Assembly (NCBI RefSeq): GCF_006438965.1
Contig: NZ_RCZM01000001.1
Coordinates: forward strand, 993,097 to 1,057,096
Source of the DNA: Pedococcus bigeumensis
Lineage (GTDB): Bacteria; Actinomycetota; Actinomycetes; Actinomycetales; Dermatophilaceae
Direction: 5' to 3'
DNA: 64,000 bases
Position numbers and translations under genes: made by a program. Below are positions 81 through 62,633 of this stretch, piece by piece (position 1 is the first letter of the stretch; each line of letters starts with the position of its first letter). The notes beneath the pieces are model-generated. The model saw only the letters and a list, made by a program, of their open reading frames with translations, was not told where the DNA came from and searched no databases.

Positions 81-117
81 GGTATGCCGCCCGCTCATCG
101 TGAGCGGGCGGCATACC
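81..117. terminator. Bidirectional hairpin terminator (17-bp perfect stem)
   Basis: The arm GGTATGCCGCCCGCTCA (81-97) is the exact reverse complement of 101-117, with a 3-nt loop TCG. There is no U-tract, as is usual for actinobacterial terminators. It lies between two convergent genes, so it can serve both. The core is nearly identical to the hairpin at 3352-3382. Both arms contain the 8-mer GTATGCCG/CGGCATAC that recurs through the window. Confidence 0.8.
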
Positions 118-127
118 CGCGTCTGGG

Positions 128-1210
128 TCAGCTCCCGAGCGCCCGGGCGAGCAGGTCGGCACGGCTGGCTGCACCGGTGCGCGCGAACACGGACTTGAGG
201 TGGTCCTGCACGGTGAGCTCGGTGATGCCCAGCCGACGAGCGGCGCCGCGCGTGTCGAGCCCTGTCGCCACTGCAACCACGACGTCGCTTTCGCGAGGCG
301 ACATGGCGTGGGCGCGGGCGAAGAGGTCGAGCCGGTCCGCGGGTGAGGTCAGCTCGTAGCCGACAGCGATGCTGGCTCCTGAGAGGGGCTCGGTGAGGCG
401 GTCGGCCCGGACCGTGAGCCAGGTCCCCGGCGCGAGCGCGACCCGGCCGCTGGGTGGGTGGTCGTCGACACCCGCCTCCACCGCCAGCAGCTGGGCCGCC
501 ACGTTGAGCGCACTCGCAGGGACGGGGCCGGCGTCACCCGCGGTGGGGAGCAGGGTGGTCAGCCAGTCCCGCAGCTGTCGGGTGCCTGCCACGGGAGTGA
601 GGTCGTCGCCGAGCAGCAGCACTCCCGGACCGTAGGCAGTGGCCGCCTTCGGTGCTGCAGCGGGCGGGCCGACCACGAATGACCGCGCAACCACGTTGCG
701 AACGGCCGCGGTCAGCCTTGGCAGCGCCGACGCGACGGCCGCCACCTCCGCACTGGCGAAGACGCCGGTGCGGCGCCAGAGGTCGAGGAAACCCCATGTC
801 CCGTGGCGGTCCCGGAGCACGGCGACGAGGACATCTGTGACGCCGTGCTGGCGCAGGGCTCCCTCCCACTGGTCGCTGCGGCCGAGGTCACCGCCGGTCG
901 CCGCGAGCAAGGTCGTGCAGCCGGACGCGTCGAGCGTGGTCCAGCGGCCCGGCCTGGTCAGGTACTTCAGCCGGATGACGCGCGGCAGGTCGTCGAGGTC
1001 CGGGACCTCGGCCAGCGGGGACGTGCCGACCGTGGTCTGCGGGTCGGTGAGGACGAAGGCGTAGAAGTCGTAGGGGATCACCGTCCCGATGACGTCGAGC
1101 ATGCGTCGCCGCAGCGCGCGGTCCTCCGGGTCGTCCGGGTGGGGACAGGTGGCGGCGTCGAGGGCGTGCAGGTCCCTGACAATCCGGTCCGAAGGCAGCG
1201 GTGGTCCCAC
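128..1210 (-). CDS. LuxR-family HTH transcriptional regulator
   Basis: This 360-residue protein ends in a LuxR/GerE-type helix-turn-helix (about residues 295-360). The segment SPRESDVVVAVATGLDTR begins it, and the ITELTVQDHLKSVFARTGA stretch is the recognition region. The N-terminal 180 residues have no response-regulator phosphorylation site and look like a GAF/PAS-type sensory fold. The signal is unknown. The GTG start at 1210 is set by a TAGGGT box (on the minus strand, 1217-1222) only 6 nt upstream, which implies a leaderless mRNA. It is divergent from the small barrel protein at 1330, a plausible target. The family call is secure; the ligand and regulon are not known. Confidence 0.85.
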   Translation of the reverse strand: MGPPLPSDRIVRDLHALDAATCPHPDDPEDRALRRRMLDVIGTVIPYDFYAFVLTDPQTTVGTSPLAEVPDLDDLPRVIRLKYLTRPGRWTTLDASGCTTLLAATGGDLGRSDQWEGALRQHGVTDVLVAVLRDRHGTWGFLDLWRRTGVFASAEVAAVASALPRLTAAVRNVVARSFVVGPPAAAPKAATAYGPGVLLLGDDLTPVAGTRQLRDWLTTLLPTAGDAGPVPASALNVAAQLLAVEAGVDDHPPSGRVALAPGTWLTVRADRLTEPLSGASIAVGYELTSPADRLDLFARAHAMSPRESDVVVAVATGLDTRGAARRLGITELTVQDHLKSVFARTGAASRADLLARALGS

Positions 1211-1216
1211 GGCCCG

Positions 1217-1222
1217 ACCCTA
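1217..1222 (-). promoter_or_regulatory. -10 box TAGGGT, leaderless LuxR-type gene
   Basis: TAGGGT on the minus strand is separated by 6 nt (CGGGCC) from the GTG at 1210. The distance places the transcription start on the start codon. Confidence 0.6.
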
Positions 1223-1329
1223 CGGCCGGGGGCCTGCTCGCCGCAGGCCCCCGAAATCTGGGATGTCGCCCGTCGAGCCGGCTTCCTAGCGTGGGCAGGA
1301 CAGCGAACCGCTGACCGAGAGGAACGACG

Positions 1330-4316: not shown

Positions 4317-5135
4317 TCAGAGCGACTCCCGGGCGGGGCGTTCGGCGTCCGGCATCCCGCCGGTCACGCGTTCGTCGTCCACGGTCAGGTCCGTGCGCTC
4401 GGACCAGAAGGCGACGAGGTCGCGAACGGGCACCGCGTCGTCCAGCGGCTCGGGGTAGAACCAGGCGATGTCGGTTCCGCCGTCGAGGTCCGCGCTGAGG
4501 TAGCTCGCCTGTCCCTTGTACGCGCACACGGTGTGGGCGTCGGAGGGAGTCAGCAGGTCCATCCGCACGTCCTCGCGGGGGAGGTACCAGCGGGTCGGCA
4601 GGAAGGTCTCGTAGAGCGCCATCGCCCGGCGGGAGTCGGCCAGCACGGTGCCACCCAGCTCGACCACCACGTGCCGGTCGCTGCGCAGCACGTCGATCCG
4701 CTTGTACGGGTCGTGGGCGTGACCGGTGATGGGCTGGTCTTCCTCGACCCATTCGAACTTGGCGAAGTCGAGCAGCACCCGCCCGCCCAGGTCGGGGTCG
4801 TCGGGCCGGAAACCGATCTCCACGGACTCGCCGTCGCCGCCCTGAAGGCCCACCGGCGTCCCCGGACACGTGTGCAGCTCGAAGTGCCGTGGTCCGAGGA
4901 CCGGTGGCAGCCCGTCGGGCACCGCACGGCGCGGCAGGTCGACGAAGCTGCCGGTGAGCGTCGTGGCGGGCACGGCATACTCCGGCACGACCCGACGGGG
5001 TTCCCACACCAGGTACGCGTCCGTCGTGTCGACGACTGTCGCCCCGCCGCGGGAGGCGCGCAGGCGCTTGGTGGTGGCGCTGCACCGCAGCTCGCCCAGG
5101 CCGCGGAACCACTGCTCGTGGAGGTCGAGTGCCAT
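4317..5135 (-). CDS. DUF427 domain protein (two DUF427 units)
   Basis: This 272-residue protein appears to contain two DUF427-type units. The N-terminal one includes YLVWEPRRVVPEYAVP, and the C-terminal one has RIDVLRSDRHVVVELGG followed by TRWYLPREDVRMDLL and CAYKGQASYLS. DUF427 proteins are small beta folds of unknown biochemical role. The frame is open up to 5228, but the ATG at 5135 avoids overlapping the upstream acetyltransferase gene. It is on the same strand as the GNAT and MMPL genes and may be co-transcribed with them. Confidence 0.8.
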   Translation of the reverse strand: MALDLHEQWFRGLGELRCSATTKRLRASRGGATVVDTTDAYLVWEPRRVVPEYAVPATTLTGSFVDLPRRAVPDGLPPVLGPRHFELHTCPGTPVGLQGGDGESVEIGFRPDDPDLGGRVLLDFAKFEWVEEDQPITGHAHDPYKRIDVLRSDRHVVVELGGTVLADSRRAMALYETFLPTRWYLPREDVRMDLLTPSDAHTVCAYKGQASYLSADLDGGTDIAWFYPEPLDDAVPVRDLVAFWSERTDLTVDDERVTGGMPDAERPARESL

Positions 5136-5190: not shown

Positions 5191-5940
5191 TCAGCGACCC
5201 AGCCTCCGGCTGGACCACAGGTGGTCACCGCCGTACCCGAGCCCGTGGTAGACCCGGCGCGCCAGGTCGTTGTCCGAGTACAGCCTCAGCGTGCAGATCC
5301 CGCGCTCGCGGACCGCTTCCCGTGTCAGGTATGCCGTGACGGCCAGTCCCAGCCCCGTCCCGCGTTCGTCGGGGTGCACGGAGATGCCGGACAGGGCCGG
5401 CCAGCCGGCGACGTTGGGTTCGCGGACGCCGCAGGCAACCAGGCGCCCGGACTCGTCCCGGGCGCCGACCCACTGCTGGTCGGGGAACTCGAAGGGCCGC
5501 GCGTCGGTGCGCGGGTTGGCCACGTCGAGCAACGCGCGGATCTCGGGGAGGTCGGCCTCGTCCAACCCCACCAGCCGGGACTCGGCCGGGACCACGGAAG
5601 GTTCCCGCGCGGCATACATCCACTCCCAGTCGTTGCCGTCGGCCAGCGGCAGGTGCGCTGCGACGGCAGCCAGCCCACCCCTGGGCACCGTGACGGCGCG
5701 CAGGTCGGGCGGGATCAGGCCGTCGGCGAGCATCGCACCGACGAGCTGCCCCAGGTCGGCCGTCGGTCCCATGATGAGCAGGCGGAGTCGCCGGGTGTGG
5801 GTGCGCCGGGAGAGCGCGACCGCGCCGCCGAGGGTGTAGGCCGCACCTTCCAGCGGTGACGGGATGTCGTAGCGGATGAAGGCGCTGTCGTCGGTGGCCT
5901 CGAGCACCTCGGCGTGGGAAGTGAGCTGTCGCAACGTCAT
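5191..5940 (-). CDS. GNAT-family N-acetyltransferase
   Basis: The protein has 249 residues with a C-terminal GNAT domain. The segment LSGISVHPDERGTGLGLAVT gives the acetyl-CoA pyrophosphate-binding loop (RGTGLG). LRLYSDNDLARRVYHGLGY is the usual last helix and strand. The N-terminal 130 residues resemble a degenerate second GNAT unit. The ATG at 5940 overlaps the TGA of the upstream exporter gene as ATGA, so translation is probably coupled. The acceptor substrate is unknown. Confidence 0.85.
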   Translation of the reverse strand: MTLRQLTSHAEVLEATDDSAFIRYDIPSPLEGAAYTLGGAVALSRRTHTRRLRLLIMGPTADLGQLVGAMLADGLIPPDLRAVTVPRGGLAAVAAHLPLADGNDWEWMYAAREPSVVPAESRLVGLDEADLPEIRALLDVANPRTDARPFEFPDQQWVGARDESGRLVACGVREPNVAGWPALSGISVHPDERGTGLGLAVTAYLTREAVRERGICTLRLYSDNDLARRVYHGLGYGGDHLWSSRRLGR

Positions 5941-8162
5941 TCGGTGATCCCGAACCGTGCGTGCCACCGCCGAAGGCTCTTGGGCGCCCACCAGTTCCAG
6001 TCGCCGAGCAGCGCCATCGTGGCAGGCACGAGCAGCATGCGCACCAGCGTCGCGTCCAGCAGCACCGCCACCGCCAGGCCCACGCCGGTCTCCTTGATGA
6101 CGAGCAGCTGGCCGGCGACGAAGCCGGAGAACACGATGACGACCAGGATCGCGGCCGAGGTGATGATGCGTCCGGATCGTTGCAGCCCGGCGATCACCGC
6201 CTCGTCGTTGCCGACCCCGCGCTCATGCAGCTCGACGATGCGGGACAGGAGGAACACCTCGTAGTCCATCGAGAGCCCGAACCCGAAGGCCAACACCAGC
6301 ATCGGGATCGTCGACTCGATCGCTCCGACGCTGTCAAAGCCCATCAGGCCCTGGAGGTGACCCTGCTGGAAGATCCACACCACGACGCCGAGACTTGCGC
6401 CGAGCGAGACGACGTTCATCAGCAGCGCCTTGACCGGGATGACCACCGACCCGGTCATGAGGAAGAGCAGGACCAGGGTCGCGAGGGCCACCAGGGCGAA
6501 GGCGATCGGCGCACGTTCGCGCAGCGAGTCGGTGAAGTCGCGCAGGCCGGACGCCTGGCCGATCACCTTGGTGGGGAAGGCAGGTCGGTCGGCCCGCAGT
6601 GCCGTCACCGCATCCCGGGCGGCGTCGTCCAGCGCCCCGCCGGGGATGTTGATCGACACCAGGGAGAGGGTGTCGGTGACGCTCTCGACCCGCCCGGTGA
6701 GGCGCTGCCCGTCGACGACCGGCAGCGACGCGGCATACGCCTGCGCCTCCTGGAGGCTCGCCTCGGCGACGACCTGGACGTCCGGCCCGGACAGCTGCGG
6801 GTAGCTCCGTTCGAGCGACTCGAAGAACTGCCGCTGCGGCGCGCTGACCGGGAGCAGCTCCCTGCCCGACGAGGTGAGGCGGAGGCCGAGGGCGGGAGCG
6901 GCGAGAGTTCCGAGGATGGCGAGCACGGCGATGATCACGAGCAGCGGGTGGCGGAACACGCGGGTGGCGAGGCGGGAGAAGACGCCCTCCTCGGGGGCCT
7001 GCTCGGTGCCGCGCTTGAGGAGGCGGCGGGCGCCGACGACGCAGAGGGCGGGGACCAGGGTGAGGGCCACGAGCATGGCCACGAGGACGACGGACAGACC
7101 GGCCGAACCGATGGCCTTGAGGATCGACGCCTCGAACACGAGCAGGCCACCGAGCGAGATTGCCACGGTCAGGCCGGAGAAGACGACGGTGCGCCCCGCC
7201 GAGTCGACAGTGCGGGCGACCGAGGCGAGGATCTCCTCGCGGGTGATCTCGGCGGTCGGTCGGCCCTGGACGCGGCTGCGCAGCTCCTCGCGGAACCGGC
7301 TGACCGTGAGCAGCCCGTAGTCGATGCACAGGCCGAGCCCGAGGACGGTGACGACGTTGACGACCGTGGCATCGAGGTCGATGAGGTGCGAGAACCCGAG
7401 GAGCGAGGCGAGGGCGCCGGCGATGGAGGCGATCGCCCCGATGATCGGCATGCCGGCCGCGACGAAACCGCCGAAGACCAGCACCATCACGAGGAAGCTG
7501 ATCGGCAGGGCTATCCCCTCGCCGGCCCGCAGGTCGGTCTCGACCTGGGAGGTGATCGCCTCGATCAGGTCGGCGAGGCCGCCGGTCGTGCCGTGAGCCC
7601 CGGGAATGGCTGCGACGAGGGCGTCGAACTGCGTGTCGACCTCTGCCTGCGCACGGTCGCGGGCCTCGCCCTCGAGGGCCGGGTCGAACGTCACCACCTC
7701 GGCGAAGCCGTCCCCGGACGTCGGCAACAGGGCCTTCGCCGCGGGGCTGTCGAGCCCCGCGGGCACGAGCTGGGGCGCTTCGACCGAGGCCACCCCGGGG
7801 ATCCGCGCGATCGCCTCGGCGGCGCTGCGCACAGCGGTGACGGTCGCGGGTGCCGCGGCGTCGGCGCCGGTCACCTGCAGCAGGTGCGTCGACGTCGCCG
7901 ACCGGCCGGCCGCGACGAGCTGGTCGCGCCCCTGGAGGTTCTCTCCGGCGACGGAGGGGTCGCCGGACTTGAGGCGGTCGAACAGGGACTGGTTGCCGAA
8001 CGCTCCGGTCGCGCCCGCGAACGCAGCGACCACCGCGAGCAGCCAGATGACGATGACGGTCTTCGGGTGGCGCCCGACGAGACCACCGAGGTGCGACAGG
8101 GCCGAGTCCGACCGGTCCGGGTGACTGGCGGCTGGGCTGGCGTGGTCAGGCGCGTCGGTCAC
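5937..8162 (-). CDS. MMPL/RND-family membrane transporter
   Basis: This 741-residue exporter of the MMPL/RND class has a first membrane helix at about residues 33-55 (TVIVIWLLAVVAAFAGATGA). A large outside domain follows, then a five-helix bundle with GLGLCIDYGLLTVSRFREEL, a second outside domain and a second bundle with FGFGLSMDYEVFLLSRI. The two SxDY signatures are the proton-relay helices of the family. The frame is open far upstream, but GTG 8162 gives the normal length and start. It exports an unknown lipid, drug or surfactant-like substrate. rarA diverges only 19 bp away. Confidence 0.9.
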   Translation of the reverse strand: MTDAPDHASPAASHPDRSDSALSHLGGLVGRHPKTVIVIWLLAVVAAFAGATGAFGNQSLFDRLKSGDPSVAGENLQGRDQLVAAGRSATSTHLLQVTGADAAAPATVTAVRSAAEAIARIPGVASVEAPQLVPAGLDSPAAKALLPTSGDGFAEVVTFDPALEGEARDRAQAEVDTQFDALVAAIPGAHGTTGGLADLIEAITSQVETDLRAGEGIALPISFLVMVLVFGGFVAAGMPIIGAIASIAGALASLLGFSHLIDLDATVVNVVTVLGLGLCIDYGLLTVSRFREELRSRVQGRPTAEITREEILASVARTVDSAGRTVVFSGLTVAISLGGLLVFEASILKAIGSAGLSVVLVAMLVALTLVPALCVVGARRLLKRGTEQAPEEGVFSRLATRVFRHPLLVIIAVLAILGTLAAPALGLRLTSSGRELLPVSAPQRQFFESLERSYPQLSGPDVQVVAEASLQEAQAYAASLPVVDGQRLTGRVESVTDTLSLVSINIPGGALDDAARDAVTALRADRPAFPTKVIGQASGLRDFTDSLRERAPIAFALVALATLVLLFLMTGSVVIPVKALLMNVVSLGASLGVVVWIFQQGHLQGLMGFDSVGAIESTIPMLVLAFGFGLSMDYEVFLLSRIVELHERGVGNDEAVIAGLQRSGRIITSAAILVVIVFSGFVAGQLLVIKETGVGLAVAVLLDATLVRMLLVPATMALLGDWNWWAPKSLRRWHARFGITE

Positions 8163-8181: not shown

Positions 8182-9579
8182 GTGGGAACTGGCGCCGACG
8201 ACGACCTGTTCGGTGCGGCCTCGTCCGCACGGGACGGCAACGGTATGCCGTCGGGGGCCTCCCTGCCGCCGCTCGCCGTGCGCATGCGGCCGCGTTCGCT
8301 GGAGGAGGTCCGCGGCCAGTCCGACGTGCTTCGACCGGGCAGCCCGCTGCGCCGGTTGATCGAGGGGTCCGGCGGATCCGCGGGCGCGCTGTCCGCGATC
8401 ATCTGGGGACCGCCCGGCACCGGCAAGACGACCTTGGCCCACCTCGTGGCCACCGCTGCTGACCGCAGGTTCGTCGAGCTGTCAGCCGTGACCGCCGGCG
8501 TCAAGGACGTCCGGACCGTCATGGACCAGGCAGCTCGCGAGCGGGACATGTACGACCGCCAGACGGTGCTGTTCCTCGACGAGATCCACCGGTTCACCAA
8601 GGCCCAGCAGGATGCCTTGCTGCCCGGTGTCGAGACCCGGCAGGTCATCCTCGTCGCGGCGACGACCGAGAACCCGTCGTTCTCCATCATCGCGCCGCTG
8701 CTGTCCCGCTCGATGCTGATCACCCTCACCTCCTTGTCCGACGAGGAGGTGGCTGACGTGCTCGCCTCCGCCATCGGCGACGAGCGGGGACTGGCGGGGG
8801 AGTACGCGCTGGCTGACGACGCCACCGAGCACCTGGTGCGGATCTCCGGCGGCGACGCCCGGCGAGCCCTCACGGCCCTGGAGGCCGCCGCGGGAGTGGC
8901 GCAGGACGGCATACCCGCTGGTGCTGACCTGGACGGCCCCGTGGAGATAACGCTCGCGCACACCGAGCAGGCGGTCGCTTTCGCGAGCGTGCGCTACGAC
9001 AAGACGGGTGACCAGCACTACGACGTCGCGTCGGCGCTGATCAAGTCGATGCGCGGGTCCGACGTCGATGCGGCACTGCACTACCTCGCGCGGATGCTGG
9101 AAGCGGGGGAGGACCCGCGGTTCATCGCCAGGCGGATCGTCATCGCGGCCTCGGAGGACGTCGGGATGGGTGACCCCACGGCGCTGCAGACCGCGGTCGC
9201 AGCCATGCACGCCGTCGCCCAGATCGGCATGCCCGAGGCGCGGATCATCCTGGCCCAGGCGGTGGTGCACAACGCGCTCGCGCCCAAGAGCAACGCGGCC
9301 TACGTCGGTATCAACGAGGCGATCGCCGACATCCGCGCCGGACGCGGTGGTGCAGTGCCCCCCGCCCTCCGCGGCAGTGGCTATGCCGGTGCAACCCGCC
9401 TCGGCCACGGAGACGGCTACGTCTACGCCCACACCGAGCCGGACGGCGTGGCCCAGCAGGACTACCTGCCCGACGACCTGCAGGGCAAGACGGACTACTA
9501 CCGGCCGACCGACCGCGGTTTCGAGGAGCGCCTCGGCCCACGGTGGGAGTGGCTCAAGTCCCGCATCCGCCGCTCCTGA
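8182..9579 (+). CDS. rarA: Replication-associated recombination protein A (RarA/MgsA)
   Basis: This 465-residue AAA+ ATPase related to clamp loaders and RuvB acts at stalled replication forks. Walker A is WGPPGTGKTTLAH, Walker B is VLFLDEIHRF, sensor 1 is AATTENPSFS, and the MgsA C-terminal tetramer domain includes DPRFIARRIVIAASEDVG. The length is typical. The GTG start at 8182 is 7 nt after TAGCCT. In many actinobacteria rarA lies just upstream of the DUF948-alaS block, as it does here; the DUF559 gene lies between. Confidence 0.95.
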   Translation: MGTGADDDLFGAASSARDGNGMPSGASLPPLAVRMRPRSLEEVRGQSDVLRPGSPLRRLIEGSGGSAGALSAIIWGPPGTGKTTLAHLVATAADRRFVELSAVTAGVKDVRTVMDQAARERDMYDRQTVLFLDEIHRFTKAQQDALLPGVETRQVILVAATTENPSFSIIAPLLSRSMLITLTSLSDEEVADVLASAIGDERGLAGEYALADDATEHLVRISGGDARRALTALEAAAGVAQDGIPAGADLDGPVEITLAHTEQAVAFASVRYDKTGDQHYDVASALIKSMRGSDVDAALHYLARMLEAGEDPRFIARRIVIAASEDVGMGDPTALQTAVAAMHAVAQIGMPEARIILAQAVVHNALAPKSNAAYVGINEAIADIRAGRGGAVPPALRGSGYAGATRLGHGDGYVYAHTEPDGVAQQDYLPDDLQGKTDYYRPTDRGFEERLGPRWEWLKSRIRRS

Positions 9580-11132: not shown

Positions 11133-11447
11133 GTGGCACGTCTGTTCTGGGTGGCGCTGGGCGCCGCAGCCGGTGTGTATGCCGTGCGCAAGGTCAGCAA
11201 GGCCGCCGAGGCCTACACGCCGACCGGGGTCGCGCACGGGCTGGCCGACTTCGGCGACGGCCTGCGCGAGCTCGCCTCGGCCGTCCGCGAGGGCATGGCC
11301 GAGCGCGAGGGCGAGCTGCGGCTTGCCCTGGGCATCGACGCCGGCACCGCCGACGACCCCGAGGCCAGCGCAGCACGGCTCGACGCCGCATCGGCCCGCG
11401 CCCTGCTCGACGACCCCACGGGCCCGCGAGGCGGACGAGCTTTCTAG
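11133..11447 (+). CDS. DUF6167-like small membrane protein
   Basis: This 104-residue protein starts at GTG 11133, 5 nt after the DUF948 stop. It has a short N-terminal membrane segment (LFWVALGAAAGVYAVRKV), then YTPTGVAHGLADFGDGLREL and an acidic helix. It matches the small protein usually found between DUF948 and alaS in actinobacteria, annotated as DUF6167. The function is unknown. The tight spacing to DUF948 argues for co-expression. Confidence 0.78.
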   Translation: MARLFWVALGAAAGVYAVRKVSKAAEAYTPTGVAHGLADFGDGLRELASAVREGMAEREGELRLALGIDAGTADDPEASAARLDAASARALLDDPTGPRGGRAF

Positions 11448-11558
11448 GGGCGCTGGCGCACCCGCGCCGCCGCCCCGGCATACCCCTCTTGTTTGCCCGT
11501 ACGATTCGTCATGCCGGCCCGTCGGTGGCCCCGCATGCGCCTAAGGACTGAGTACTTC

Positions 11559-18760: not shown

Positions 18761-20441
<1,681 letters not shown>

Positions 20442-22505: not shown

Positions 22506-22592
22506 GTCCGCCGAATCCCACCCCGAACCTTTCCGGGACTGCCGCACGCGCTCGACCACGCGGCATACCGGCTCTTTTGAAAGCGATATGAC

Positions 22593-23630: not shown

Positions 23631-23681
23631 ATCTCGGTGGCGCCGCGGCGGGCCGGTATGCCGGGTGCTCACCGCACCGGG

Positions 23682-28618: not shown

Positions 28619-32013
<3,395 letters not shown>

Positions 32014-42737: not shown

Positions 42738-42759
42738 CAGCGGCCCGGACCACGCGGCA

Positions 42760-42765
42760 TACACT
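42760..42765 (+). promoter_or_regulatory. -10 box TACACT for def-fmt-rsmB
   Basis: TACACT overlaps a CGGCATAC word (42755-42762) 22 bp after the M16-like gene. It would give a leader of about 45 nt before def. Confidence 0.5.
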
Positions 42766-51249: not shown

Positions 51250-51340
51250 CTCGCCATACTGCCCCGTCCCGACAAAGGGCCGCCACACCCCGTGAGGACC
51301 GTCACGCGGACCGGACGGAGCCGCGCAGGTGACCCTGCGG

Positions 51341-51346
51341 CATACT
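51341..51346 (+). promoter_or_regulatory. -10 box CATACT for the rib operon
   Basis: CATACT overlaps the CGGCATAC word at 51338-51345. It precedes the FMN riboswitch by about 14 nt, a plausible spacing. Confidence 0.45.
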
Positions 51347-51607: not shown

Positions 51608-52633
51608 GTGGCAGAGCAACGGACGTCCGACACGGCGATGATGCGCCGTGCCCTGGCGTTGGCTGCGCATGGGCCGCGGGCCAACCCCAACCCCCGCGTC
51701 GGCTGCGTGCTCGCCGATGCGGGTGGTGCCGTCGTGGCCGCTGGATGGCACCGTGGCGCGGGCACCCCGCACGCCGAGGCCGACGCCCTGGCTGCCGCCG
51801 GCGAGCGGGCAGCCGGCTGCACGGCCTACGTCACCCTGGAGCCGTGCAACCACTCCGGGCGCACCGAGCCATGTGCCAAGGCCTTGTATGCCGCGGGTGT
51901 GGCTCGTGTGGTCTATGCCCAGACCGACCCCAACCGGGCTGCGGCCGGCGGCGCCAAGTGGCTGCGCCGCAAGGGTGTCGAGGTGGTCGGTGGGCTCCTG
52001 GCGGACGAGGCGCAGGCGCTCAACCGCACCTGGACCCACCTCGTGACCACCGGCCGTCCCTGGGTGACGTGGAAGCTCGCGACCACCCTCGACGGCCGTA
52101 GCGCGGCGGCTGACGGGTCGAGCCAGTGGATCACCGGAGAAGCGGCCAGGGCCGACGTCCACGAGCAGCGGTCGCGCTGCGGTGCCGTGCTCGTGGGAAC
52201 CGGCACCGCCCTGCTCGACGACCCCCAGCTGACGGCTCGTCGCCCGGACGGGTCGCTCTATCCCGAGCAGCCGATCCGCGTGGTGATGGGTGAGCGGGAC
52301 CTGCCAGCGGGTGCGCGTGTCCTCGATGGCGCCGCAACCACGTGGCAGCTGCGGACCCGCGATCCCAAGGATGTCCTGTCGGCGCTCGCCGACGCGGAGG
52401 TGCACCACGTCTGGCTCGAGGGTGGCCCCACCGTGGCGGCCGCGTTCATGGCAGCCGACCTCGTCGACGAGCTCGTGGCCTACGTCGCCCCAGTCCTGCT
52501 GGGGCGCGGACGTCCGTCGGTCAGCGACCTGGGCATCACCTCGATCGACCACGCCCTCCGCCTGAAGCCGACCGACATCACCCTGATCGGCGACGACGTG
52601 CGGATCACGGCTTCACTGAAGGGACTTCGCTGA
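51608..52633 (+). CDS. ribD: RibD: riboflavin deaminase/reductase
   Basis: This 341-residue bifunctional enzyme covers steps 2 and 3 of riboflavin synthesis. The N-terminal deaminase zinc motifs are PHAEADAL and LEPCNHSGRTEPC. The C-terminal reductase (from about residue 150) has TWKLATTLDGRSAAADG and VWLEGGPTVAAAF. The frame is open from 51506, but GTG 51608 gives the normal N-terminus after ACAG. First gene of the FMN-switched operon. Confidence 0.95.
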   Translation: MAEQRTSDTAMMRRALALAAHGPRANPNPRVGCVLADAGGAVVAAGWHRGAGTPHAEADALAAAGERAAGCTAYVTLEPCNHSGRTEPCAKALYAAGVARVVYAQTDPNRAAAGGAKWLRRKGVEVVGGLLADEAQALNRTWTHLVTTGRPWVTWKLATTLDGRSAAADGSSQWITGEAARADVHEQRSRCGAVLVGTGTALLDDPQLTARRPDGSLYPEQPIRVVMGERDLPAGARVLDGAATTWQLRTRDPKDVLSALADAEVHHVWLEGGPTVAAAFMAADLVDELVAYVAPVLLGRGRPSVSDLGITSIDHALRLKPTDITLIGDDVRITASLKGLR

Positions 52634-53277: not shown

Positions 53278-53990
53278 ACATCTTCAGTCGGCTCTACGAG
53301 GCGCACCTGACGATCGCCGGCCACCCCATCACGTGGCGCGAGATCGTCGGCAACGCCTTCGGCTTCGCGTCCGCCATCGGCGGCCTGCGGCGCCGTGTCT
53401 GGGCCTGGCCGATCGGCATCGTCGGCAACGTGCTCCTCTTCACGGTGTTCATCGGCGCCACCTTCGACGCCCAGGCGCAGCAGCCCTTGTTCGGCCAGGC
53501 CGGGCGGCAGGTCTTCTTCATCCTCACGAGCGTTTACGGCTGGTGGCGCTGGAACGAGGTCCGCAAGGCGCGCGAGGTCGCGGGCAGTGGTGTTGGGGCT
53601 CCCGCCATCACGCCGCGCTGGGCCACGGTCCGGGAGCGGACGGCATACCTCGTGGCCGCTGTGTCGGGCGTGCTGGTGTTCCAGTGGGCGTTCTCCGTGA
53701 TCGGCGCAGGCTGGCCCGCGCCGCGCTGGTACTTCTGGTGCGACGCCTGGATCTTCGTCGGGTCGATGGTTGCGACGTACGCGATGGCTCGCGGCTGGAA
53801 CGACTTCTGGCTGGCGTGGATCGCGGTCGACCTCGTCGGCGTCCCCCTCCTCTGGCACTCGCAGTACTACCCGACGGCCATCCTGTTCGTCGTCTACGGC
53901 GCCCTGGTCATCTACGGCTTCTTCGTGTGGCTCAAGGCTTCTCGTGAGGAGCGCGACCCCGCTCCCGAGCTGGCGGAGGTCTCCGCATGA
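53274..53990 (+). CDS. PnuC-family transporter, likely riboflavin (RibM/PnuX type)
   Basis: This 238-residue polytopic protein of the PnuC family has about 7 membrane helices. Signature parts are GFASAIGGLRRRVWAWPIGI, VYGWWRWNE and WNDFWLAWIAVDLVGVPLL. PnuC proteins usually take up nicotinamide riboside, but those inside FMN-riboswitch operons of actinobacteria (RibM) carry riboflavin. Its position between ribE and ribBA, with ATGA overlaps on both sides, argues for riboflavin. Substrate is inferred from context. Confidence 0.85.
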   Translation: MNIFSRLYEAHLTIAGHPITWREIVGNAFGFASAIGGLRRRVWAWPIGIVGNVLLFTVFIGATFDAQAQQPLFGQAGRQVFFILTSVYGWWRWNEVRKAREVAGSGVGAPAITPRWATVRERTAYLVAAVSGVLVFQWAFSVIGAGWPAPRWYFWCDAWIFVGSMVATYAMARGWNDFWLAWIAVDLVGVPLLWHSQYYPTAILFVVYGALVIYGFFVWLKASREERDPAPELAEVSA

Positions 53991-55213
53991 TCGGCCTGGC
54001 CAGCATCGAGGACGCCCTCGCCGCGCTGCGCGGTGGCCGTCCTGTGCTGGTCACCGACAGCGAGGACCGCGAGAACGAGGGCGATGTCATCTTGGCCGCC
54101 GAGACGCTGTCGTCCGAGTGGCTGGCCTGGACCATCCGCCACACCAGCGGCTACCTGTGCGCGCCGGTGACGAACGAGATGGCCGACCGGCTCGGTCTGC
54201 CGCTCATGGTCGCCGACAACCGTGACCCCTTGCGTACGGCCTACACCGTGAGCATCGACGCGGCACAGGGCGTGACGACGGGCATCAGCGCCGCGGACCG
54301 GGCGCGGACGATCGGTCTCCTGGCCGACCCGTCCTCCACCGCCGACTCGTTCGTCCGTCCCGGCCACGTGATCCCGTTGCGGGCCAAGGCCGGTGGCGTG
54401 CTCGAGCGCCCGGGCCACACCGAGGCCGCCGTGGACCTGTGCCGGCTCGCGGGTCTCGCGCCGGCCGGGGCGATCGGCGAGCTGGTCAACGACGACGGCA
54501 CGATGATGCGCCTGCCGGAGGTGCTCGCGACCGGGGCGGTCAACGACCTCCCGGTCATCACCATCGAGCAGCTGATCGCCTGGCGGCAGCTGCACGACCG
54601 GGTCGAGACCCTTGCCGAGACGACGCTGCCCACCAAGCACGGCGAGTTCTCGGCGGTCGGGTTCCGCGACCGGCTGACCGGTGACGAGCACGTGGCGCTC
54701 GTCAGCCCGCGTGGCGCCGGGGGGCCGAACCCGTTGGTGCGGCTGCACTCCGAGTGCCTCACCGGCGACGCCTTCGGGTCGTTGCGGTGCGACTGCGGCC
54801 CCCAGCTCGAGCGTTCCCTCGACCGGATCGCCGCCGAGGGGGGCGTGCTCGTCTACCTGCGCGGCCACGAGGGGCGCGGGGTCGGGCTGGTCTCGAAGCT
54901 GCAGGCCTATGCGTTGCAGGACAACGGTTTCGACACCGTCGACGCCCAGCTCGAGCTCGACCTGCCCGTGGACGGCAGGGAGTATGCCGCCGCGGCGGCA
55001 ATCCTGAGCGCGCTGGGTCTGCACACGGTCCGGCTGCTGACCAACAACCCGGCCAAGGTCGAGGCCATGCAGCGCTACGGCATCGAGGTCGCGGCGGTCG
55101 AGGGTCTCTCGATCGCCCCCAACGCAGCCAACCGCGCCTACCTGCGGACCAAGCGGGACCGGATGGGGCACGACCTCGTCGTGGACGCGAGCGACCAGGA
55201 CGCCACCGCATGA
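53987..55213 (+). CDS. ribBA: RibBA: DHBP synthase / GTP cyclohydrolase II
   Basis: The 408-residue fusion supplies both riboflavin precursors. The DHBP synthase half has [18 protein letters not shown] and the later [11 protein letters not shown]. The cyclohydrolase half has the zinc site [18 protein letters not shown] and [10 protein letters not shown], where the E. coli motif is RQEGRGIGL. Near the end is [12 protein letters not shown]. It overlaps both neighbours with ATGA. The ribulose 5-phosphate used by its first half is a pentose phosphate intermediate. Confidence 0.95.
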
Positions 55214-55695
55214 GCGGGCACGGCGCACCGGCGATCACTGCCGAAGGTGCCGGCCTCAGGGTGGCCATCGTGGCGGCCTCGTGGCACACCGAGGTCATGG
55301 ACGGGCTGGTTGCCGGGGCCGAGCGTGCCCTCGCTGAAGCCGGCGTCGAGGACGTCCCGCTCGTCCGGGTGCCGGGCACGGTCGAGCTGACCGTCGCGTG
55401 CGCTCGTCTCGCGCCGGCATACGACGCGCTGGTGGCCCTGGGTGTCGTGATCCGCGGTGGCACACCGCACTTCGACTACGTCTGCAGCGGAGTCACCAAC
55501 GGCCTGGCGCAGGTGAGTGTCGCGACGGGGTGTCCCATCGGGTTCGGGGTGCTCACCTGCGACGACGATGCCCAGGCGCTCGACCGGGCCGGGCTGCCCG
55601 GATCCAGCGAGGACAAGGGGCACGAGGCGGCGATGGCTGCCGTGGCGACCGCGGTCACCCTCGGCGCCCTCGCTCCCCGTACCCTTGGCGTGTGA
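55210..55695 (+). CDS. ribH: 6,7-dimethyl-8-ribityllumazine synthase
   Basis: This 161-residue enzyme joins the two branches of riboflavin synthesis. The catalytic His is in [18 protein letters not shown], and the substrate loop is [19 protein letters not shown] and GHEAAMAAV complete the family marks. ATG 55210 overlaps ribBA. Its last codons GGC GTG TGA overlap the GTG start of hisE, joining the rib and his genes in one transcript. Confidence 0.95.
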
Positions 55696-55968: not shown

Positions 55969-56814
55969 ATGTTGCGAATTGCAGTGCCCAACAAGGGATC
56001 CCTGTCCGAGCCTGCGGTCGAGATGCTGCGCGAAGCGGGCTACCGCACGCGCCGCGACACCAAGGAGCTCGTCCTCACCGACTCCGACAACGAGGTGGAG
56101 TTCTTCTACCTGCGTCCGCGCGACATCGCCGTCTACGTCGGGTCCGGCACCGTCGACTGCGGAGTCACCGGTCGTGACCTCCTGCTGGATGCAGGAAGTG
56201 CCGCGATCGAGGTCATGACGCTCGGCTTCGGCGGCTCCACCTTCCGGTATGCCGCGAAGCCCGGCACCTGCGCCAGCGTCACCGAGATCTCGGGTCATCG
56301 GGTCGCGACCAGCTATCCCGGTCTGGTCGCCAAGCACCTCGCCGACCAGGGTGTCAGCGCCGAGGTGGTCCGGCTGGACGGGGCTGTCGAGACGGCGATC
56401 ACGCTCGGGGTCGCCGACGTCATCGCGGACGTCGTCGAGACCGGCACCACCCTGCGGCAGCAGGGACTGGAGGTCTTCGGCGAGGAGATCCTGCGCAGCG
56501 AGGCCGTCCTCATCCGGCGCGAGGGGTCGCACGAGACGGCTGCCGTGGACGTCCTGCGCCGACGCCTCACCGGTGTGGTCACCGCGCGCCACTACGTGAT
56601 GCTCGACTACGACGTCCCGGTCGCCCTGGTCGAGGCCGCCTGCGCCATCACGCCGGGCCTGGAGTCGCCCACCGTGTCGGCACTGCAGAACAAGGACTGG
56701 GCCGCGGTCCGGGCGATGGTGCCGCGGGTGCGGACCAACTCGATCATGGACGAGCTCTACGACCTCGGGGCGCGGGCGATCCTGGTGACCGACATCGCCG
56801 CCTGCCGGTTGTGA
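55969..56814 (+). CDS. hisG: ATP phosphoribosyltransferase (long form)
   Basis: This 281-residue enzyme is the first step of histidine synthesis. The length and C-terminal ACT-like regulatory domain (VTARHYVMLDYDVPVALVEA within 200-281) mark the long form that is inhibited by histidine and needs no HisZ. The catalytic part has MLRIAVPNKGSLSE, and the PRPP loop is DVVETGTTLRQQGL. The next gene overlaps its stop (GTGA). Confidence 0.95.
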   Translation: MLRIAVPNKGSLSEPAVEMLREAGYRTRRDTKELVLTDSDNEVEFFYLRPRDIAVYVGSGTVDCGVTGRDLLLDAGSAAIEVMTLGFGGSTFRYAAKPGTCASVTEISGHRVATSYPGLVAKHLADQGVSAEVVRLDGAVETAITLGVADVIADVVETGTTLRQQGLEVFGEEILRSEAVLIRREGSHETAAVDVLRRRLTGVVTARHYVMLDYDVPVALVEAACAITPGLESPTVSALQNKDWAAVRAMVPRVRTNSIMDELYDLGARAILVTDIAACRL

Positions 56815-57434: not shown

Positions 57435-58631
57435 CTAGTCGACCTTGCGGAGGCCAGGGCGCAGGAATGAGGACAGCCCCACCTGGGCGAACATCAGGAC
57501 CGTCAGCGTGCCCCAGACCGCCGTGAACGAGCCAGACAGGTCGCGGACAGCACCCATGCTCGCGGGTCCGAACGACGCGATCGTGTAGCTGAAGAAGAAC
57601 GCCATCCCGGCCAGCCGCGCACTGGCCGCGGGAGTGCCCGCGTAGTCGACCATCAGCACCAGCCCGAGGGCGAACGACGCCCCCTGCCCGAACCCCAGCA
57701 CGGTCGCCCAGACCCAGGGCGCGGCGGTCGGTGCCAGCCAGAGGCCAGCCTGGCCGAGCAGCCCGAGGACCGACGCCGACAGCAGCAGCACCCGCCGGTC
57801 GACGATCTTGTCGGTCAGCGCTGGGGCCAGCAGGCCGGACACCAGCTGGGCCGCCGTGAAGACGGACAGCAGGTAGCCCGCGTGCGTCGGGTCCCAGCCA
57901 CGCGCGGTGTACGAGGGCGCGAGCCAGGCCAGGGTGGAGTAGAACTCGACCGACTGGACGGCGAGGTAGGCGGCGACCAGCCACGCGGTGACATGTCGCC
58001 ACGGGAGCCGGACGGGCGCGACGACGGCCGGGTTCGCCGCGCGGTGCCGCGCATGCCCCGTCAGGACCGGCACCCAGGCCAGCACCCCGACGACGGCGAG
58101 CAGCGAGCACGAACCCAGCGCCGCCTGCCACGAGCCCAACCAGCCCTCGAGCGGTACCGACAGGGCCGACGACGCACCGGCTCCGCCCATCATCGCGAGC
58201 ATGTACAGCCCCGTGACCAGCCCTGCGCGTTCGGGCGGGAACAGCTCCTTGACCAGGCCAGGGAGGAGCGTGCCGCCGATGGCGATACCGACCCCGGCGA
58301 GGAACGTCCCGGCATACAGGGGCCACGTCGCGCCACCGGCGAACCGCAGGGCCAGACCGCCCGCGACGCACGCGATCGACAGCTCGATGGAGGCCGCGGC
58401 ACCCAGTCGCGCGGCGATCCGCTGCGCGAACGGCGCGAACAGGCCCATGCACAGGACGGGCAGCGTGGTGAGCGCGCCGAGGGCCGTGTTGGACAGGCCC
58501 AGGTCGTCCGCGATCGACTCGGTGAGCGGCGGCACGCTGGCCATGGCGGTGCGCAGGTTGGCGGCCACGGCGACCAACGCCAGAGCCATCAGCCAGACAG
58601 GGGGGAGGTGGGGGCTGCGACGGGAAGACAT
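57435..58631 (-). CDS. MFS transporter, CynX/NimT-like
   Basis: This 398-residue major facilitator protein has 12 predicted membrane helices. The start resembles CynX/NimT (VAANLRTAMASVPPL), and the loop between helices 2 and 3 has FAQRIAARLGAAASIE. The substrate could be an anion or a drug; it is not predictable. AAGACT, 7 nt before the ATG, resembles the leaderless boxes seen nearby. Its 3' end faces the PH-domain gene across the dyad cluster. Confidence 0.88.
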   Translation of the reverse strand: MSSRRSPHLPPVWLMALALVAVAANLRTAMASVPPLTESIADDLGLSNTALGALTTLPVLCMGLFAPFAQRIAARLGAAASIELSIACVAGGLALRFAGGATWPLYAGTFLAGVGIAIGGTLLPGLVKELFPPERAGLVTGLYMLAMMGGAGASSALSVPLEGWLGSWQAALGSCSLLAVVGVLAWVPVLTGHARHRAANPAVVAPVRLPWRHVTAWLVAAYLAVQSVEFYSTLAWLAPSYTARGWDPTHAGYLLSVFTAAQLVSGLLAPALTDKIVDRRVLLLSASVLGLLGQAGLWLAPTAAPWVWATVLGFGQGASFALGLVLMVDYAGTPAASARLAGMAFFFSYTIASFGPASMGAVRDLSGSFTAVWGTLTVLMFAQVGLSSFLRPGLRKVD

Positions 58632-58654: not shown

Positions 58655-59773
58655 TCAGTCGTCGTGCGGGCCGGTCGACATCGACTCAGGCACCATCTCG
58701 ATCGCCTCGTCATGGGGCACGCCGGTGAGCATCAGCAGGTCGACGACCATCGAACGGATCTGCGCGCGCATCACCTCACCCGACAGCCCCGCGGACTTGT
58801 CGATGACGGCACTGGCCTCGCCGATCCGCTGGAGCCCGACGCGCGCGTTGGTGGGCAGGCGACGTTCGCCCAGCTCACGGGAGATGTCCTCGCTCGTCTC
58901 GGCGAGGGCGTCCAATAGGTGCAGGTATGCCGTGGGGACGGCTTCCTCGCGCCACGTCGCGATCGCGGCGCGACGGACCAGGACCCGCAGGTTGCGGATG
59001 GCGCGGTCAAGGGGTTCGAGCAGGTCCGCAATGGCCTGGACGCCGGGGAGGTGACGACGCCGGAACGGTGACAGCCGCACCACCGCGATGCCCTCAGCGG
59101 ACAGCGCCCGGGCCTCGTCGAGCAGGGACTCGGACTCACGCGCGCGAGACAGCGTGGCCGACGCGAGGTCGGAGTCATGGTTGCGCAGCGAGCGGGCCGT
59201 GTCGGCGAGGATCTCGCCGATCTCGTGGACGACCAGTGCGGCCTGCTGTCGGGGCCGGCGCAGTGGTGCGGCAGGCGCGACCAGGGTGAAGAGCAGGGCG
59301 ACCACCCCGCCGACGACGGCGTCGAGCCACCGGGTGAACGCCTGTCCGGACCCCGCCACGAGGGTGGTGACGATGACCGACTGCACGCCGGCCTGGGTGA
59401 TCAGCAGCATTCCGGCGCCGAGCAGTGCGGCCACACTCATGGCCAGCACGACGACGACCACGATCTGCCAGTACCCGGACCCGAAGAAGTGCACGAAGAC
59501 GTCGCCGACGAACACGCCGACCGCCACTCCGATCATCACCTCGGTGACCCGGCGGAGTCGCTGGCCGAAGGACATCCCCAGCGAGATCATCGCCGTCACC
59601 GGCGCGAAGAACGGCCGGTTGTGGTGCAGGACCGCGCTGGCCACCCACCAGGCGGTGGCGGCGCCCAGACCGCACTGGACGATGAAGAACATCCGGCTGA
59701 CCAACCGGTCGACGCGGGCCCTGGCCTCGTGGCGGGAGCGCCGGCCGGCACGTGCGAAGTCGACGCTGGTCAC
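58655..59773 (-). CDS. FUSC-family membrane protein
   Basis: This 372-residue protein has about six membrane helices in the first half (FIVQCGLGAATAWWVASAVL, then FFAPVTAMISLGMSFGQRLRR and VLAMSVAALLGAGMLLI). A helical cytosolic half follows. FUSC/aromatic-acid-exporter proteins efflux organic compounds. GTG 59773 begins 1 nt after the upstream DUF4287 gene's stop, so the two are co-translated. Substrate unknown. Confidence 0.84.
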   Translation of the reverse strand: MTSVDFARAGRRSRHEARARVDRLVSRMFFIVQCGLGAATAWWVASAVLHHNRPFFAPVTAMISLGMSFGQRLRRVTEVMIGVAVGVFVGDVFVHFFGSGYWQIVVVVVLAMSVAALLGAGMLLITQAGVQSVIVTTLVAGSGQAFTRWLDAVVGGVVALLFTLVAPAAPLRRPRQQAALVVHEIGEILADTARSLRNHDSDLASATLSRARESESLLDEARALSAEGIAVVRLSPFRRRHLPGVQAIADLLEPLDRAIRNLRVLVRRAAIATWREEAVPTAYLHLLDALAETSEDISRELGERRLPTNARVGLQRIGEASAVIDKSAGLSGEVMRAQIRSMVVDLLMLTGVPHDEAIEMVPESMSTGPHDD

Positions 59774-60350: not shown

Positions 60351-60383
60351 GCCCCGATTATGTCGGTCTGGCCCAGGACCTGC

Positions 60384-60566: not shown

Positions 60567-60576
60567 GTGCGCCACG

Positions 60577-61164
60577 CTAGCGACGGTGGGTGGTGTCGAC
60601 GAACAGGTCGGCGCGCTCCCAGGTGCGGTCGGCGTCGTAGAGACGGCGCTCCTGGACGGCCCAGCCCTCCCAGTAGGGGGCGTAGCCGGCGTCCCGGGCG
60701 AGTCCGCGCGCCCTGCGCACGGTCTCCTCGGCCTCGACCCAGACCAGCACCGAAGCCGCCTTGCCGGCGGGGAGGGCGCCGGACCCGCAGCCCTCGAGGA
60801 CGACGACCTCCGACGAGGGCAGCTGCACCCACTCGGCATACTGCTCGGCGGCCCAGTCCCAGCGCCGGTAGCGGGCGGGGAGGCCCTCGGCGAGCGGCCC
60901 CACGATCCACTCCTGGGCGCGGTGCGTACCGGCCCTCAGGCCGTCCCACCCGGGGTAGAGGTCGTCCATGTGCACGGTCGGCGCGGCGAGCGTTGCGGCC
61001 AGGTCGCGGGCCAAGGTCGTCTTGCCGGCGCCGCTCGGGCCGTCGATGCAGATGAGGTGCGTGCTGCCGCACAGGGCGTCGCTGCCGTCGACCAGGCTGA
61101 CGATGGCCGCGACCACGTCCACCGTGCGGTCGAGGCGGATGGCCGCTCTGTGGTCGGTGGGCAT
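60577..61164 (-). CDS. P-loop kinase, uridine/phosphoribulokinase-like
   Basis: The 195-residue protein has Walker [16 protein letters not shown], the acidic [13 protein letters not shown] segment typical of uridine-kinase-type enzymes, and [12 protein letters not shown] as Walker B. The substrate is probably a nucleoside or similar small alcohol, but this is not settled. ATG 61164 is 7 nt after TAGTCT (minus strand, 61172-61177). It is divergent from hisF. Confidence 0.82.
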
Positions 61165-61195
61165 GTGCTCAAGACTAGATCGCTACGCTCGCAGC
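61165..61195. promoter_or_regulatory. 31-bp divergent leaderless promoter pair (kinase / hisF)
   Basis: TAGTCT on the minus strand (61172-61177) is 7 nt from the kinase ATG. TACGCT on the plus strand (61184-61189) is 6 nt from the hisF GTG. The -10 boxes are only 6 bp apart, so each polymerase would cover the other promoter. Confidence 0.6.
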
Positions 61196-61969
61196 GTGAG
61201 TGTTGCGACCCGCGTCATCCCCTGCCTCGACGTGGACGCCGGGCGGGTGGTTAAGGGCGTCAACTTCGCCAACCTGCGCGATGCGGGCGACCCGGTCGAG
61301 CTCGCGAAGGCCTATGGGGAGCAGGGTGCCGACGAGCTCACCTTCCTCGACGTCACGGCCAGCAGCGGCAACCGGGAGACGACCTACGACATCGTGCATC
61401 GCACCGCCGAGCAGGTCTTCATCCCGCTGACCGTCGGCGGGGGAGTGCGCACCGTCGACGACGTGGACCGCCTGCTGCGGGCCGGAGCGGACAAGGTGGG
61501 TGTCAACACCGCCGCCATCGCGCGACCCGAGCTCATCGCCGAGGTCGCGGACCGGTTCGGCTCGCAGGTGCTGGTGCTCTCCGCCGACGTCCGTCGCCGC
61601 CGGGACGACTCCGGCGCGACGACGGCTGACTTCGAGGTCACCACGCACGGAGGGCGCCAGGGCGCGGGGCTCGACGCCATCGAGTGGTGCGCCCGCGCGG
61701 CCGAGCTCGGTGCCGGGGAGATCCTGCTGAACTCGATGGACGCCGACGGCACCAAGGACGGCTTCGACCTCGAGCTCATCGAGCTGGTTCGCCGGGAGGT
61801 GCGGATCCCGCTGATCGCTAGTGGCGGGGCCGGCCGGGTCGACCACTTCGCGCCAGCGGTACGCGCAGGGGCCGACGCGGTCCTCGCCGCCAGCGTCTTC
61901 CACTTCGGTGAGCTCACCATCGGTGAGGTCAAGGACGCCCTGCGGGAGGGCGGCATACCGGTGCGTTGA
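61196..61969 (+). CDS. hisF: Imidazole glycerol phosphate synthase, cyclase subunit
   Basis: This 257-residue half of the HisHF enzyme makes the imidazole ring. The catalytic Asp residues are in [15 protein letters not shown] and [13 protein letters not shown]. Phosphate loops are [11 protein letters not shown] and [15 protein letters not shown] 61196 lies 6 nt after TACGCT. hisH is not in this window, and hisF is separated from hisE-hisG by 4.4 kb of unrelated genes. Confidence 0.96.
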
Positions 61970-61988
61970 GGTTGCCGTCGCCGGGCGG

Positions 61989-62633
61989 TCAGGTGAGGCC
62001 GAGAGGGGCGGCCCACAGGGCGTCCACCGCGGACTCGCCGCCCGTCACCTCGAGGTCGGCGACGCGATGACGGCCGTATGCCGCGAGCATCAGCTCGGCA
62101 GGGGTGCCCTCCAGGACCACCGTGCCGAGCTCGGTGGCACTGCGGGCCTCCAGAGACTGACCTTCCGGGGTGCGCAGGACGACCCCGACCGGGCTGCGGC
62201 GGAAGAACACCTTGGCCATGCGGGACAACATCTTCCACAGTGCACGCGATTCGCGTGGGGACAGCTCGCGCTGCGGACCGACGGTCTCGTCGCCGCGGAG
62301 GACGTCCTCGTGGTGGATGAAGTACTCGATGAAGTTGAAGGCGTCGTCGACCCCGGCGAACTGGGCGGGCGACCACTTGGGGGGTCCGGAGCGGACCAGC
62401 TCGACGAGCTCGGGCCACGGTTTGGCGGCGTACTCCTCCATCCCGCTCTCGAGCCGGCTGGCCAGCGGCGGCAGCCAGATGCCGGGTGCGAGGTCGGGGC
62501 GGCGCTCGCGCACGACGAGGTGGGCGGCGAGGTCAGCGGTGGTCCAGGGCGAGCAGAGGGTGGGGGCGTTCGGACCCATCGCGACGAAGGTGTCACAGAG
62601 GGCGTCGCGCTCGAGCTGGGCGAGGTGGGTCAT
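61989..62633 (-). CDS. TIGR03085-family protein (DinB/maleylpyruvate-isomerase-like)
   Basis: The 214-residue protein belongs to the mycothiol-dependent/DinB-like superfamily, with the N-terminal ALCDTFVAMGPNAPTLCSPW, a His in DLAAHLVVRERRPD and FIEYFIHHEDVLRG carrying possible metal ligands. TIGR03085 proteins are typical near hisF in actinobacteria. The reaction is unknown. ATG 62633 is 6 nt after TAAGGT (minus strand, 62640-62645). It converges on hisF with an 18-bp gap. Confidence 0.84.
   Translation of the reverse strand: MTHLAQLERDALCDTFVAMGPNAPTLCSPWTTADLAAHLVVRERRPDLAPGIWLPPLASRLESGMEEYAAKPWPELVELVRSGPPKWSPAQFAGVDDAFNFIEYFIHHEDVLRGDETVGPQRELSPRESRALWKMLSRMAKVFFRRSPVGVVLRTPEGQSLEARSATELGTVVLEGTPAELMLAAYGRHRVADLEVTGGESAVDALWAAPLGLT

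Follow-up and report, generated by a model that had tools for sequence, protein, structure and literature searches.

The 64,000-nucleotide window analysed here (C1:993097-1057096 of the 4,223,823-base assembly of Pedococcus bigeumensis, family Dermatophilaceae; genome G000) is strewn with copies of one 8-mer, read as GTATGCCG on one strand and as CGGCATAC on the other. Copies lying on the same strand keep apart over distances of up to about 1.5 kb, and copies on opposite strands do not. We hypothesize, with a probability of roughly 60%, that GTATGCCG is an uptake-type self-recognition word of natural transformation that is read with polarity. The observations behind this reading are the abundance of the word, its restriction to the family among sampled genomes of the order, a dialect, a second word, the conservation of individual copies, hairpin-forming pairs, the strand-specific spacing and the presence of ComEA-like and ComEC genes.

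The window holds 43 copies, 21 as GTATGCCG and 22 as CGGCATAC, as compared with a mean of 0.91 and a maximum of 4 in 100 dinucleotide shuffles, none of which reached 43, and with 1.87 expected under a third-order Markov model; by z-score the word ranks first among all 8-mers of the window. An earlier note on this DNA had counted about 42 (20 and 22); its figure for CGGCATAC stands, that for GTATGCCG was one short, and the strong over-representation it had claimed is real and larger than stated. The note was also right that the eighth base is fixed: GTATGCC or GGCATAC extends to the full 8-mer in 43 of 43 cases in the window, and GTATGCC is followed by G in 322 of 324 cases in a 522-kb sample of the genome (the window plus 458 kb of further stretches). 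Outside the word the bases vary, as it had said, apart from soft preferences in the same sample for C or T at +1, G at +2 and G or C at +5. The copies in the window are listed below; genes are those called by a simple purpose-made gene caller.

82..116, no strand: convergent pair forming a terminator-like hairpin (inner stem of 16 bp) that lies 12 bp beyond the 3' end of a called minus-strand gene (128-1102)
82..89, plus strand: word copy GTATGCCG, left hairpin arm, intergenic
109..116, minus strand: word copy, right hairpin arm, intergenic
4973..4980, minus strand: word copy
5329..5336, plus strand: word copy
5610..5617, minus strand: word copy
6731..6738, minus strand: word copy
8243..8250, plus strand: word copy
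8907..8914, minus strand: word copy, outside called genes
11177..11184, plus strand: word copy
11476..11483, minus strand: word copy, intergenic by the gene caller
14993..15000, minus strand: word copy
16096..16103, plus strand: word copy
16774..16781, plus strand: word copy
17042..17049, minus strand: word copy
19523..19530, plus strand: word copy
21799..21806, plus strand: word copy
22561..22568, minus strand: word copy, intergenic by the gene caller
23656..23663, plus strand: word copy, intergenic by the gene caller
24437..24444, minus strand: word copy
26738..26745, plus strand: word copy
28425..28432, minus strand: word copy
30129..30136, plus strand: word copy
32032..32039, minus strand: word copy
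36600..36607, minus strand: word copy, Gly-Ile(ATA) in a called gene
36684..36691, plus strand: word copy
39335..39342, plus strand: word copy, left arm of close pair 39335-39356, within a called gene
39349..39356, minus strand: word copy, right arm of the same close pair, within a called gene
42208..42215, plus strand: word copy
42755..42762, minus strand: word copy, intergenic by the gene caller
44117..44124, plus strand: word copy, identical in 4/8 aligned species
45102..45109, minus strand: word copy, Gly-Ile(ATA), identical in 3/8 aligned species
48843..48850, plus strand: word copy, identical in 4/10 aligned species
51338..51345, minus strand: word copy, intergenic by the gene caller, identical in 6/9 aligned species
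51886..51893, plus strand: word copy, identical in 6/10 aligned species
53641..53648, minus strand: word copy, identical in 1/9 aligned species
54982..54989, plus strand: word copy, identical in 4/10 aligned species
55415..55422, minus strand: word copy, identical in 4/10 aligned species
56247..56254, plus strand: word copy, identical in 8/10 aligned species
58310..58317, minus strand: word copy, identical in 8/10 aligned species
58925..58932, plus strand: word copy, identical in 5/9 aligned species
60834..60841, minus strand: word copy, identical in 5/9 aligned species
61951..61958, minus strand: word copy, Gly-Ile(ATA), identical in 5/9 aligned species
62076..62083, plus strand: word copy, identical in 2/9 aligned species

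The over-representation survives at the scale of the whole genome (4.22 Mb), where 2551 copies (1264 + 1287) were counted against 74 (35 + 39) of a control word, GTATGCCG reversed, with both strands included. In the 522-kb sample, 322 copies compare with 3.5 expected from a word-masked background, an excess of about 90-fold, and the 24 one-mismatch words taken together exceed their expectation only slightly (339 vs 246). Great excess, occurrence on both strands and a density of about one copy per 1-2 kb are properties that GTATGCCG shares with uptake sequences. The two strands are nearly even in each of 14 blocks, in agreement with the balanced orientation on which the note had judged a KOPS-like (FtsK-orienting polar sequence) motif unlikely, and we reject KOPS or any other replication-polar motif on this ground. 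Among 8-mers without overlap with the word, the one that comes next in enrichment in the window, GATGCCCA/TGGGCATC, is far weaker (17 vs 2.7).

In a 322-kb sample (the window plus 258 kb), the gene caller placed 142 copies in coding sequence, 46 between genes and 2 partially in genes, at densities of 0.52 per kb in coding and 0.98 per kb in intergenic DNA. All three reading phases are used, and Tyr-Ala (62) together with Ala-Tyr (46) accounts for 108 of the 142 coding copies. These counts uphold the claims that the word occurs in every phase and between genes, that it is not confined to Tyr-Ala pairs and that the pressure acts on DNA rather than on protein; the copies said to be intergenic, at 82/109, 11476, 22561, 42755 and 51338, are so by the gene caller as well. 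Use of the rare Ile codon ATA is found in called genes at 36600, 45102 and 61951, whereas the copy at 8907 falls outside called genes and this instance is not confirmed. The preponderance of Tyr-Ala and Ala-Tyr is what a coding, mutational or codon-pair bias would produce, but such a bias would not be expected to yield a word that is denser between genes than within them, nor one whose one-mismatch relatives are barely in excess and lack the same-strand avoidance described below, and its probability appears negligible. A codon or dipeptide bias, contradicted both by the intergenic copies and by the strand rule, is rejected.

Pairs of copies less than 60 bp apart are strongly polarized in arrangement, with 18 convergent, 1 divergent and 1 direct pair in the 522-kb sample. 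In 14 of the 18 convergent pairs the stem extends beyond the word, reaching 14-17 bp in 9 of them, the pair at window 82-116 included, and convergent hairpin-forming pairs of this kind are likewise known from uptake sequences. The copies are also conserved: when the 14 words in window 44001-63800 were compared with 10 relatives, 65 of 130 aligned cells held the identical word. The corresponding baselines are 0.228 for 8-mers in general and 0.268 for those matched in composition. At window 57310-57427 lies an interspersed repeat, about 75-110 bp long, with arms around TCTGTGCACAGA and matching both strands; many copies occur in G000 at 76-85% identity and some in G002.

The spacing of the word depends on the strand. 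For the 322 copies of the 522-kb sample, the observed/expected ratio of same-strand pairs was 0.16 at 60-500 bp, 0.41 at 500-1000 bp, 0.65 at 1000-1500 bp and 0.80 at 1500-2000 bp, whereas that of opposite-strand pairs over the same four distances was 1.08, 1.00, 1.06 and 0.91. When strands were reshuffled among fixed word positions (2000 permutations), 103.2 same-strand pairs were expected at 60-1500 bp (standard deviation 7.1, minimum 78) and 58 were observed. Neighbours more than 60 bp apart were on opposite strands in 205 cases and on the same strand in 82, and the coefficient of variation (CV) of same-strand spacing was 0.60 against a null value of 0.99. To the balance of orientation, which holds, the strand rule thus adds that same-strand copies keep apart and ignore the opposite strand. 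Opposite:same neighbour counts lean the same way in other carriers (119:49 in G004, 53:25 in further genomes of its genus, 76:37 in other genera) and for GTATG[ACG]CG in G042 (31:11, p 0.003). The one-mismatch words of G000 show no same-strand avoidance (1.11, 1.12, 1.01), two other enriched word sets of this genome tend to cluster on one strand, and the avoidance was not seen for one enriched word set in G062 and G103.

The DNA uptake sequence (DUS) served as a further comparator, in four genomes that belong to the order of Lampropedia and contain 1863-4285 copies of GCCGTCTGAA; their assignment to Neisseriaceae is based on GCCGTCTGAA itself. Pooled, these genomes gave densities of 0.92, 0.96 and 1.16 for same-strand pairs and 0.96, 0.94 and 1.09 for opposite-strand pairs, with a CV of 1.04; in two of them, G591 and G735, distances of 60-500 bp are avoided on both strands alike. 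In a toy turnover model, a pattern of the type observed (487:229) arose only with orientation-specific redundancy, orientation-blind redundancy giving 352:364; we interpret the model as a matter of consistency, not of mechanism. A nucleoid-protein or chromosome-organising site would be in keeping with a same-strand spacing more regular than chance (the CV of 0.60 against 0.99), but strand-specific spacing, dialect turnover and a family in which 76 of 186 genomes stay below 300 copies would be unexpected for a conserved organiser, and we consider such a site very improbable.

The same strand rule would also follow from the main rival to our reading. Here the word would be a Chi-like signal, recognised in one orientation only by a helicase-nuclease that enters at a DNA break; each break end would then need the first correctly oriented copy, further copies in the same orientation within reading distance would be redundant, and opposite ones would not. 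The same-strand avoidance and the independence of opposite strands that follow from this scheme are both observed. Chi is, like the word here, short and non-palindromic; it is read in one orientation only, and the known Chi words are G-rich, as is CGAAGGGGG, a second word of the family treated below. In contrast to the strand-balanced word, Chi of E. coli K-12 (500 kb) is skewed 86:35 between strands, and its pairs within 1.5 kb show no same-strand avoidance (forward 28 vs 21.9, reverse 19 vs 4.4 expected). RecC was found in 24 of 55 genomes searched, less often in carriers of the word (8/29) than in others (16/26; p 0.015), and is absent in G000, so a RecBCD reader is lacking there (AdnAB and AddAB were not searched) and RecBCD-Chi is rejected for this genome. 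Further, we know of no Chi with an excess of about 90-fold, with dialects or with an exclusive second word, all of which are present here. On balance, we consider a Chi-like reader unlikely. AdnAB is one candidate for it, and if this rival were true the word would represent a recombination signal in actinobacteria, where the AdnAB step analogous to Chi recognition is called unclear in a passage of PMC13309787.

Genomes with at least 300 copies were taken as carriers. In the window's genus each of the 11 genomes is enriched, with 625 to 3986 copies of GTATGCCG, and in a family survey of 186 genomes from 53 genera 110 are carriers and 76 have fewer copies, 14 of these with 100-295. Within a sample of 396 genomes, 361 from other families of the order contain at most 180 copies, the top genome having a control count of 195; among sampled genomes of the order, to which this comparison extends, the word is restricted to the family. 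Low counts occur in G124 (50 copies, its congeners mostly having hundreds to over a thousand) and likewise in G018 and G094, which belong to otherwise enriched genera; losses or misplacements are possible. The reversed word used as control is also frequent in certain genera (578 against 1660 word copies in G015), perhaps arising from flanking bases or overlapping copies. For such genera a Markov expectation is the more reliable yardstick, and in G015 it gives 19 copies vs 1.2 expected (40 kb). A scan of genome contigs for the convergent pair returned many unrelated phyla among the matches listed, a result that names carriers and not specificity. A 4.7-kb part of the window gave no match to phages, and Tetrasphaera phage TJE1 has 2 copies in 49 kb vs 0.62 expected, too few to argue from.

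Some genera show a dialect or another word. The bases flanking GTATGCCG vary by genus (20-60 kb samples), and in G042, of genus g14, the top 8-mer is GTATGACG (16 vs 1.1), with GTATGGCG also enriched (10 vs 1.1). Genome-wide counts in 59 genomes gave 1622-1966 copies of GTATGACG in all five g14 genomes, 1557 in G167, 344-834 in six other genomes and 44 in G000; the g14 genomes retain GTATGCCG as well (1734-2542 copies). A second word, CGAAGGGGG, unrelated to the first, is the top word in two genera without GTATGCCG (29 and 27 copies vs 1.8 and 1.6, 60 kb each). Genome-wide, all 16 genomes of g27 and all 3 of g36 have 797-1939 copies of it, and none of the remaining 167 has more than 80; the 19 genomes hold no more than 41 copies of GTATGCCG each, CGAAGGGGG being an exclusive second word. 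Clade-specific dialects, as uptake sequences have them, are thus represented by GTATGACG and CGAAGGGGG, as judged from word counts by genus. No third word of similar strength was found in G011, G160 and G030 (60 kb each), which are among the genomes without either word. In the second-word genomes G062 and G103 another word, GGTGCGCA, is enriched, with 10 of 11 close pairs (<60 bp) convergent, and is perhaps another hairpin or terminator word.

Such turnover bears on the possibility of a methylation or strand mark, in which an enzyme would modify a single strand of the non-palindromic word, with the spaced marks serving repair or replication control. Per-strand spacing would suit a mark required on each strand, and a precedent exists in HIP1 of cyanobacteria (PMC4390886), a palindromic 8-mer that is specific to its clade, likewise very abundant there, and linked to orphan methyltransferases. 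HIP1 and GTATGCCG are alike in that one 8-mer is extremely abundant within a clade, but GTATGCCG differs from its own reverse complement, and the dialect and the exclusive second word would each demand an altered enzyme specificity. We regard a mark of this kind as quite unlikely.

The reading that we favour is self-recognition in natural transformation; the earlier note had included an uptake-like word in its list of candidates and made no choice among them, and it had no view of how the word is distributed over the family, of its dialect, of the second word or of the strand rule. DNA bearing GTATGCCG would be taken up preferentially via natural transformation, and recombination of word-bearing DNA would restore and spread the word, in the manner of DUS in Neisseriaceae and the uptake signal sequence (USS) in Pasteurellaceae, with other genera of the family using the added dialect GTATGACG or the unrelated CGAAGGGGG. 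If the reader is polar, a copy on one strand would be of use to no more than a single side or strand of the DNA, so that a second copy on the same strand within about 1.5 kb would be redundant and one on the opposite strand would not. In a monoderm cell, recognition may be tied directly to the import of a single strand through ComEC, and the word would then be polar. We infer that uptake is biased, that there is a specific receptor and that the polarity has this cause. According to passages of PMC7811141, DNA reaches the periplasm double-stranded, and thereafter the 3'-leading strand alone passes through ComEC; for an actinobacterium, Micrococcus luteus, passages of PMC6370729 describe comEA and comEC homologues and a requirement of Flp pili for transformation.

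In G000, ComEC (Competence and lactamase-type domains) adjoins a ComEA-like protein (SLBB, HHH_3), and ComEC is present in 161 of 163 family genomes, word carriers or not. Competence genes are thus in place, as an uptake system would need, and they do not discriminate, because genomes without the word carry ComEC too. In a list of open reading frames (ORFs) examined by eye, no carrier-specific gene was evident in the ComEC neighbourhoods of ten genomes (6 with the word, 4 without). Upstream of ComEC, a rough ORF listing gave no ComEA-like ORF for G160 and G103, two genomes without GTATGCCG.

Several observations weigh against this reading. The presence of ComEC does not predict the word, genomes with and without it being alike in this respect, and it fails as a predictor; a specific receptor for the word was not found. 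Type IVa PilT scored above cut-off in 1 of 55 genomes and was strong but sub-threshold in 2 more, so that, judged by PilT, the pilus machinery of neisserial DUS with ComP is nearly absent from these 55 genomes (ComP itself was not searched), and a type IVa pilus receptor is rejected. Neither word reaches 300 copies in 57 of the 186 family genomes. In Phycicoccus elongatus the neighbour counts of 63:46 are not significant (p 0.13), though the same-strand CV is 0.68, and for CGAAGGGGG the strand trend is weak: 139 opposite to 101 same (p 0.017), same-strand CV 0.98, with densities over the first three distances of 0.66, 0.58 and 0.75 on the same strand and 1.06, 1.01 and 1.05 on opposite strands. 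No run of four T follows the hairpin within 10 bases in any of the 18 convergent pairs. Uptake by H. influenzae is independent of word orientation, as stated in part of PMC1939737, and the pooled DUS comparators themselves show 207 opposite and 167 same-strand neighbours (p 0.044), G711 contributing most (68:40, p 0.009). This last point and the lower frequency of RecC in carriers, which speaks for our reading, are both small and opposed. As for PilT, the strong matches are those of G060, G096 and G182, the sole three of the 55, and all three carry the word; the remaining genomes gave weak ATPase matches, as G000 did exclusively, and these may be Tad/Flp ATPases.

Keeping these points in mind, we tentatively propose, at somewhat less than even odds, that a monoderm family has an uptake-type system comprising two mutually unrelated words and one or more dialects, in which control of spacing per strand points to a directional or single-strand reader during import. 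To our knowledge, there is no earlier example of a monoderm uptake-word system or of per-strand word spacing. Among the matches listed in a literature search, with subscription journals mostly outside it, we found no report of GTATGCCG as a genomic element and no uptake word reported for Dermatophilaceae; the uptake words in the literature found belong to Neisseriaceae and Pasteurellaceae, both Gram-negative. If the proposal is true, an actinobacterial family would add an independent instance of DNA self-recognition, one that includes both a dialect and the replacement of a word; how uptake words originate and turn over could be compared across 53 genera, and the strand rule would offer a genome-based handle on the strand and direction of import in monoderm cells.

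Among known uptake words, copies of USS of Pasteurellaceae are, by the description in parts of PMC7811141, spaced about 1,000 bp apart on average and form hairpin pairs where genes end, so that density and hairpins are comparable, whereas the orientation-independent uptake there (PMC1939737, in part) differs from the strand rule here. For DUS of Neisseriaceae, the excess, strand balance, hairpin pairs, clade restriction and dialects by genus match those described in parts of PMC3630211. In both cases a short, non-palindromic word occurs in thousands of copies on both strands, in coding and in intergenic DNA, and forms convergent hairpin pairs. The strand rule does not match the DUS description in those parts of PMC3630211: same-strand copies avoid each other here, whereas pair densities are alike on both strands in the four sampled comparators, the lack of a strand difference being a feature of these genomes and no published definition of DUS. 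The hosts here are high-GC actinobacteria with type IVa PilT nearly absent, and two unrelated words are used inside one family. We interpret these data to indicate that the word probably works like an uptake sequence, and we do not count it among the ComP-type DUS family.

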